A stretch of DNA of 64,000 nucleotides from Monosiga brevicollis MX1 (lineage: Eukaryota > Opisthokonta > Choanoflagellata > Craspedida > Salpingoecidae), in assembly GCF_000002865.3 (NCBI RefSeq), contig NW_001865058.1:599661-663660 (forward strand), written 5' to 3'. This document shows, in pieces, positions 22,654 through 35,726 of the stretch (position 1 is the first letter of the stretch; every line of letters starts with the position of its first letter). A model generated the notes under the pieces. That model did no database searches. It saw only the letters and a list, made by a program, of their open reading frames with translations, and was not told the origin of the DNA. Position numbers and translations under genes: made by a program.

Positions 22654-22812
22654 ATTATTCACCCATAAGCCAGTGTATTTTGGTATCGTCTATATATGCT
22701 TTGCTTTGGTTACCTTTCAGTATCCTTCCGCAAGGGCAATTCGTGTATCTATGAGGTCCCATCCGATGGTCACGATATTGCTGATTGAAAACTTTCAGTC
22801 CGGTTACCCAGG

Positions 22813-22865
22813 AAGCGCCTAACGGCGCTTGCCTAATATTTGGGGGCGCTAAGCACGCCGTGCTT
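22813..22865. repeat. Two adjacent perfect short hairpins
   Basis: AAGCGCC-TAAC-GGCGCTT (22813-22830) is a 7-bp stem with a 4-nt loop. Twenty bases on, AAGCACG-C-CGTGCTT (22851-22865) is a near-continuous palindrome. Both stems end in AAGC/GCTT. This could be an RNA 3'-end structure or a remnant of a small palindromic element. Confidence 0.55.
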
Positions 22866-35200: not shown

Positions 35201-35279
35201 AACAAATATGCTGACAAAAACTATCCCCCAAAAAGATTTGCTTTAAATATTAACCTAACGTCTCTACAGTCAGTACATC

Positions 35280-35369
35280 GGGGCATTGGCGCAAATGGTA
35301 GCGCGCTCCCTTAGCATGGGAGAGGTACTGGGATCGATCTGTAACTCGAAGACCCACCCGGATGCTCCA
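35280..35369 (+). tRNA. tRNA-Ala(AGC)-like gene with a T-arm insertion
   Basis: The cloverleaf can be laid out base by base. Acceptor GGGGCAT (35280-35286) pairs fully with ATGCTCC (35162+200 = 35362 minus 200 offset not needed: it lies at 35162 of the local line, i.e. the last eight bases before 35370) plus A73. D stem is GCGC/GCGC (35289-35292, 35301-35304) with loop AAATGGTA. Anticodon stem CTCCC/GGGAG (35306-35310, 35318-35322) carries loop TTAGCAT, anticodon AGC at 35313-35315. T stem is CTGGG (35328-35332) with CCCGG just before the 3' acceptor strand. The T loop should be 7 nt (ATCGATC) but 24 nt separate the stem strands, so about 17 extra bases (TGTAACTCGAAGACCCA) are present. The A box has about one mismatch and the B box is interrupted at its 3' end. 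It may be a non-canonical intron, a tRNA-derived ncRNA or a pseudogene. Confidence 0.75.
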
Positions 35370-35377
35370 TGATTATC

Positions 35378-35382
35378 TTTTT
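35378..35382 (+). terminator. Pol III-type T5 terminator
   Basis: Five T residues eight bases after the 3' end of the tRNA-Ala-like gene, the expected RNA polymerase III stop signal. It supports a transcribed unit of about 100 nt. Confidence 0.6.
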
Positions 35383-35726
35383 GCATCCGTATTGTGGGTA
35401 TGGGCGGATGCAATTTGGTCACAACGATCGTTGTGGCCATTTGTCGGTTTTTTTTTTTTTTTTTCCTCTTTTTTTGGATGTCGCTCGCTGCAGCGAGCTG
35501 GATGTGAACGGGCAAGTATCCTCCTCGCCTGATCTGATCTTCTCGTCTGATCTTCTTGGAGAGGTTGGCTGCTTGCTCCGACGCCTGCCTGTTCACCTGC
35601 CCAAGGCCCGGCCCGGCCCGACGTCCGCCCCCACCTCGAGTTGACAGTGGTGTGTTTCGTGGCATCGAGCGCTGCTCGCGTTCGAGGAAACCAAGAGTTG
35701 ACGCCACCTTGAGCGTCGCCGAGGCC

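Follow-up and report, generated by a model that had tools for sequence, protein, structure and literature searches.

Introduction

Introns in the T arm and permuted tRNA genes have been described in the red alga C. merolae, in prasinophytes, in nucleomorphs and in archaea (PMC4090602, PMC3978253, PMC9602550; for these and the other papers cited, our statements refer to the portions available to us). Permuted tRNA genes are also present in Auxenochlorella (PMC12636532), and upstream TATA-like elements have been discussed for algal tRNA genes (PMC3978253). The closest parallel to the genome examined here, that of the choanoflagellate Monosiga brevicollis, is C. merolae, in which T-arm introns and permuted genes likewise occur together in one nuclear genome (PMC4090602, PMC9602550, PMC3978253). 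The positions differ: the T-arm intron of C. merolae tRNA-Ile(UAU) lies at 53/54 (PMC9602550), whereas the T-loop inserts of M. brevicollis are all compatible with 59/60. That position is among those listed for archaeal non-canonical introns (PMC4090602). The archaeal sites form bulge-helix-bulge structures that are cut by the archaeal endonuclease. Here the candidate is the eukaryotic SEN endonuclease, and a search for a bulge-helix-bulge motif gave no support for one when judged against shuffled introns, a further difference from C. merolae. Finally, the nucleomorphs of Guillardia theta and of chlorarachniophytes carry short T-arm inserts in eukaryotic tRNA genes, as M. brevicollis does. Those of G. 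theta, however, are 3 to 24 nt long and belong to an enslaved algal nucleus, and their excision has been confirmed by RT-PCR sequencing (PMC4090602).

The annotation program tRNAscan-SE 2.0 is described as analyzing non-canonical introns for archaeal-model candidates (PMC8450103). In the literature that we searched, which covered few subscription papers, we found no report of permuted tRNAs or of T-loop tRNA introns in choanoflagellates. Here we describe a tRNA-Ala(AGC) gene of M. brevicollis with 17 extra nucleotides in its T loop. We consider it highly probable that this is a working nuclear gene with a 17-nt intron at 59/60, transcribed by RNA polymerase III, cut by SEN and completed by joining of its exons, and that the same machinery serves tRNA-Cys, -Ser, -Lys and -Thr genes that are also disrupted.

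Results

A tRNA-Ala(AGC) Gene Is Interrupted in the T Loop

The window, by which we mean the whole 64-kb stretch of DNA that was analyzed, contains the gene at 35280-35369 (Table 1). Its acceptor, D, anticodon and T stems pair, the anticodon is AGC and A73 is present, but the two strands of the T stem are 24 nt apart, leaving 17 extra nucleotides in the loop; a T5 run follows at 35378-35382. An earlier note on this DNA had listed these same features, and all of them are confirmed in the sequence. ARAGORN called no tRNA when run on the whole window, and the Rfam tRNA model did not reach its cut-off at this gene. When the insert was removed, ARAGORN called a 73-nt tRNA-Ala(agc). The uncut 90-nt sequence was aligned end to end, at 43.3 bits, by a covariance model made from six human tRNAs; this model was applied to 45 sequence sources. 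The sole Rfam match in the window was a complete U4 spliceosomal RNA (RF00015, 70.7 bits; 22722-22855, forward strand).

The insert can be slid by one base. Removal of CTGTAACTCGAAGACCC gives the loop ATCGATA and a junction at 59/60, whereas the alternative cut, which is the one made in the earlier note, gives ATCGATC and a junction at 60/61. The uncut sequence also folds well (z -2.1; 4 of 200 shuffles equal), with the TCGA of the T loop paired to a TCGA in the insert so that the T-arm hairpin is lengthened.

Table 1. Features of the window tRNA-Ala(AGC) gene and positions of the permuted tRNA-Thr(AGT) genes
Feature	Position	Strand	Basis
TATA-like element TTTAAA, at -38	35242..35247	+	read from window sequence
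ACATC, immediately 5' of tRNA-Ala(AGC), common to 5/5 copies	35275..35279	+	copy alignment
tRNA-Ala(AGC) 5' exon, positions 1-59, anticodon AGC	35280..35338	+	identical in 5/5 copies
Putative T-loop intron CTGTAACTCGAAGACCC, 59/60 (alternatively 35340-35356, 60/61)	35339..35355	+	sole gene part differing between copies
tRNA-Ala(AGC) 3' exon, positions 60-73	35356..35369	+	identical in 5/5 copies
Trailer TGATTATCTTTTT including T5 terminator, common to 5/5 Ala(AGC) copies	35370..35382	+	copy alignment
Permuted tRNA-Thr(AGT), L063-L067	C45:417740; C48:594804, 595604, 596566, 669827		

All Copies Found Carry the Insert

The earlier note had suggested a search of the genome for further tRNA-Ala(AGC) genes. 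We used window positions 35270-35450 as the query against 39.47 Mb in 57 contigs. Five copies were found, 97-100% identical: the one in the window (contig C37), two on C42 and two on C27. All five carry the insert. In the other four, similarity ends just past the T5 run (query positions 113-118 of 181); ACATC on the 5' side and TGATTATCTTTTT on the 3' side are kept, and the outer flanks are unrelated. The same gene thus recurs five times in unrelated surroundings, which argues that its structure is not a product of chance. The mature part of 73 nt does not differ among the five copies (0 of 73 exon columns variable), whereas the insert, which is 17 or 18 nt long, varies in 4 of 18 columns, including a one-base change in length.

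An uninterrupted tRNA-Ala(AGC) was not found in searches of the genome, which covered the best-scoring candidates in an assembly that may be about 2 Mb short. The Rfam tRNA search scored the best 63 of 760 candidates, and absence from that list is uninformative. The other Ala genes that we saw, two with anticodon CGC and two with TGC, are all ordinary. Among the Ala codons of ten long open frames in the window, none of them a confirmed gene, 375 of 629 are GCT or GCC.

Three Further Isoacceptors Have T-Loop Inserts

A search for other tRNAs with T-loop inserts, also suggested by the earlier note, yielded three further isoacceptors and, in addition, one permuted tRNA. Inserts compatible with 59/60 are present in Ala(AGC) (five copies), Cys(GCA) (three), Ser(GCT) (two) and Lys(CTT) (five). 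The original reading of the Ala gene as bearing an intron or insertion in the T loop is thus supported, and it underestimated the extent of the trait. In each of the four families, the inserted segment lies away from 37/38 and its removal restores a tRNA, as is the case for non-canonical introns.

The Lys(CTT) genes were found with an intact tRNA-Lys(TTT) as query, the match ending at position 59; the two isoacceptors are the same at 65 of 73 positions (8 differences). Each of the five (L045-L049) has a T-loop insert of 15-16 nt and a second insert, of 12-35 nt, at 65/66. The second insert is a hairpin with a variable upper part in four of the five copies, with fold z-scores of -3.1, -3.1, -2.4 and -5.6, the 12-nt insert of the fifth copy being left out of this test. 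A normal Lys(CTT) was not found in the genome searched here. In the two tRNA-Ser(GCT) copies (L040, C48:212570 and 212997), 59-60 nt are inserted at the T-loop site. ARAGORN places the 3' end of this tRNA wrongly, and the Rfam match is limited to model positions 8-63; both errors have one cause, namely that the true strands of the T stem and acceptor stem are displaced downstream by 59-60 nt. The three tRNA-Cys(GCA) copies have T-loop inserts of 23, 19 and 19 nt. They are informative about the site: a junction at 59/60 (or 58/59) gives identical mature T loops in the copies, whereas 60/61 gives differing loops. The Ala, Lys and Ser junctions can be slid by one base.

We compared variation in exons and inserts over the four families. 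Pooled, 1 of 300 exon columns and 42 of 152 insert columns are variable (Fisher p about 6e-21; the test takes the columns to be independent, which they are not, and Cys was counted on two of its three copies). By family, p is 3e-15 for Lys, 0.0006 for Cys, 0.001 for Ala and 0.42 for Ser, which is not significant alone. The Lys count includes gap columns from the copy with the shorter second insert; when this copy is omitted, none of the 73 exon columns is variable, as against 20 of the 51 columns of the inserts. We also counted how often 12 contiguous nucleotides would complete the T stem and acceptor stem by chance. This occurred at 8 (Ala), 1 (Cys) and 2 (Ser) of 127,976 window positions; for Lys it occurred at none of 127,976, a figure that is not directly applicable because the second insert lies between the two strands. 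ARAGORN assigned each of the 13 joined sequences tested (12 of them spliced, 1 re-ordered) to the correct isotype. When folded without constraints, the precursors of Cys, of Ser and of most Lys genes gave no cloverleaf.

A Permuted tRNA-Thr(AGT)

A tRNA-Thr(CGT) query returned five extra loci at which the match ended in or beside the anticodon loop. At each, a tRNA-Thr(AGT) is encoded with its 3' half first and its 5' half downstream. A 35-nt spacer, identical in all five copies, links the acceptor ends of the two halves, and T runs follow the 5' half (Table 1). The break falls in the anticodon loop, at 37/38 or 38/39. When the halves are re-ordered, ARAGORN calls a 72-nt tRNA-Thr(agt), which is the same as one normal Thr(CGT) of this genome at 68 of 72 positions (4 differences). 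The intact Thr genes found are two CGT and one TGT. This arrangement resembles the permuted genes of prasinophytes, in which the 3' half also comes first and the anticodon loop is broken at 37/38 (PMC3978253); the prasinophytes, however, are algae, whereas this five-copy Thr(AGT) with its invariant spacer belongs to a choanoflagellate.

Ordinary tRNA Genes in the Same Genome

The genes that we found for Gly, Asp, Pro, Val, Gln, Glu, Phe, Ile, Asn, Trp, Leu, Arg and elongator-type Met, and for Ser other than Ser(GCT), are uninterrupted. The one Tyr gene read, a tRNA-Tyr(GTA) on the contig of the window (L103, C37:683100-683210), contains an intron of the ordinary kind, 13 nt long and at 37/38. 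Nuclear tRNA genes of the same isotype are clustered locally in tandem, with a spacing of a few hundred bases (L019, L028, L037, L080 and others), and contig C57 has mitochondrial-type tRNAs in its first 40 kb. There may be more disrupted genes than we list, since the genes located did not include His, initiator Met, Arg(TCG/CCG) or Ile(TAT); Leu(AAG) was absent from the matches of a search with a Leu(CAG) query. A human tRNA-Val query gave no match although normal Val genes are present, so an empty DNA search is no proof of absence.

Upstream Elements

The B box is broken at its 3' end by the insert, for which reason the earlier note had raised the question of how RNA polymerase III would be recruited. 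A TATA-like motif lies between -60 and -22 in 52 of 73 distinct intact tRNA genes and in 13 of 17 interrupted or permuted ones; for random positions within the loci examined, the figure is 145 of 3200. We had already looked at some of the upstream sequences when we settled on the set of motifs. By family, it is present in 3 of 5 Ala, 3 of 5 Lys, 2 of 2 Ser and 5 of 5 Thr genes, Cys being left out. The interrupted genes therefore share the kind of upstream element that normal genes have, which answers the question in part. Together with the T runs, these elements also lend indirect support to the earlier suggestion that the locus may be transcribed. We propose that Ala(AGC) would be transcribed by RNA polymerase III and that, given the broken B box, the upstream TATA-like element probably helps.

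Splicing Machinery and a Possible Mode of Cutting

Matches to PF01974 were found at two loci of the genome. One of the fragments matches SEN2 of solved structures (best E 4e-9) and the other matches SEN34 (best E 8e-7); exons of an RtcB homologue lie on contig C50. Given these homologues and the ordinary Tyr(GTA) intron, tRNA splicing is to be expected in this organism.

The position of the inserts suggests how such an enzyme might act on them. A junction at 59/60 falls between the sixth and the seventh nucleotide of a loop of 7 nt closed by a 5-bp stem, which is the same geometry as 37/38 in the anticodon arm. SEN endonuclease could therefore cut the T arm at 59/60 in the way that it cuts the anticodon arm at 37/38, after which the Ala exons would be joined, probably by RtcB. 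The T-loop introns of Cys(GCA), Ser(GCT) and Lys(CTT) would be removed by the same machinery, which would also take out the second Lys(CTT) intron and process the permuted Thr(AGT). The second Lys intron does not fit the loop analogy, since 65/66 is outside the 7-nt loop.

In ordinary tRNA introns a helix between loop and intron marks the 3' site, and we looked for its counterpart between the T loop and the 3' part of the intron. Such a helix can form in Ala (TCGA with TCGA, kept in all copies) and in Ser (TTCG with CGAA), and it is shorter in most Lys genes and weak in Cys. Shuffled introns often do as well. Watson-Crick helices at least as long were obtained in 266 of 2000 shuffles for Ala (4 bp), 224 for Ser (4 bp), 229 for Lys L047 (4 bp), 1104 for Lys L046 (3 bp) and 1992 for Cys (2 bp). 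The ordinary Tyr intron (2 bp) was equalled in 1962 of 2000, and the test accordingly has little power. When the T stem was imposed on the fold, Ala formed a helix of 4 bp with 7-8 nt on the 3' side of the loop, and Lys L047 one of 5 bp with 4 nt there. Of the two Ser copies, one formed 4 bp with a bulge of 3 nt, and Cys formed no helix; here too, shuffles often match the helix lengths. A bulge-helix-bulge motif was for this reason dropped as proof of splicing. The mode of SEN recognition is unproven, because shuffles so often reach these helix lengths and the ordinary Tyr intron performs no better.

Discussion

Could the Ala(AGC) genes simply be dead? If the five copies were pseudogenes, an intact gene would have to lie in absent sequence or to have been missed, and there is some room for this: the assembly comprises 39.5 Mb, compared with 41.6 Mb given for M. 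brevicollis in the available part of a 2018 survey (PMC6188563), and only the best 63 of 760 candidates were scored in the Rfam search. The pattern of change, however, is the opposite of decay, for the exons are identical in all five copies and the insert alone varies. A tRNA pseudogene would be recognized by decayed exons or by synonymous intact genes; in this possibly incomplete assembly, neither was found for Ala(AGC), and a compatible insert site is used in four isoacceptors. We therefore regard pseudogenes as improbable. That the insert is retained, giving a mature tRNA-Ala of 90 nt with an extended T arm, is more improbable still. The good fold of the uncut sequence and its longer T-arm hairpin speak for this idea, but Ala inserts differ in length and sequence from copy to copy, and the 59-60-nt Ser insert and the second Lys insert, between the T and acceptor stems, could hardly be kept. 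An extended T arm, moreover, is incompatible with the contact between T loop and D loop and would abolish it. A tRNA-derived SINE or other repeat was suggested by a T run at 35448-35464, farther downstream of the tRNA-like head. It was rejected: our search found no more than five copies, the downstream part is absent from the other four, and what the copies have in common is the gene together with the segments next to it that hold the proximal promoter region and the terminator. We give this explanation almost no weight.

It may be, on the other hand, that the introns are real and that a nuclease other than SEN removes them. A SEN-type recognition motif could not be demonstrated statistically, and the second Lys intron sits outside a 7-nt loop. 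Nevertheless, homologues of SEN2, SEN34 and RtcB are present, 59/60 mirrors 37/38, and the corresponding sites in C. merolae and archaea have been ascribed to SEN-type splicing endonucleases (PMC4090602, PMC3978253). A different nuclease thus seems unlikely to us, if slightly less so than pseudogenes, and we favor a spliced tRNA-Ala(AGC) whose T-loop intron is cut out by SEN.

Spliced and permuted genes would also bear on earlier counts. The 2018 survey, as far as its available part goes, lists five M. brevicollis tRNA-Lys(CUU) pseudogenes and counts one further Lys(CUU) as normal in another assembly; it also reports a Thr mismatch in both choanoflagellates, Salpingoeca rosetta appearing to lack Thr(AGT) (PMC6188563). 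The five pseudogenes are probably the interrupted Lys(CTT) genes described here, and an intact Lys(CTT) may lie on sequence outside the assembly that we searched. The interruption of the Lys genes would explain why pseudogenes were reported, and the permuted Thr gene perhaps explains the Thr mismatch. The close matches of Thr(AGT) to Thr(CGT) and of Lys(CTT) to Lys(TTT) make a recent origin of the disrupted genes possible.

More broadly, we lean toward the view that in choanoflagellates, which are the sister group of animals, several isoacceptors are encoded solely by disrupted genes, with introns at 59/60 and 65/66 and a permuted gene, that SEN reads the T arm as though it were another anticodon arm, and that this is the first such case in opisthokonts. 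If this is true, the "pseudogenes" and odd isoacceptor sets that a standard tRNA search gives in choanoflagellates would be accounted for, and the disrupted tRNAs would serve the common codons GCC/GCT, AGC/AGT, TGC/TGT and ACC/ACT, of which they appear to be the sole readers in a close relative of animals. It would also mean that an opisthokont has splicing machinery able to process both T-loop introns and permuted tRNA genes.
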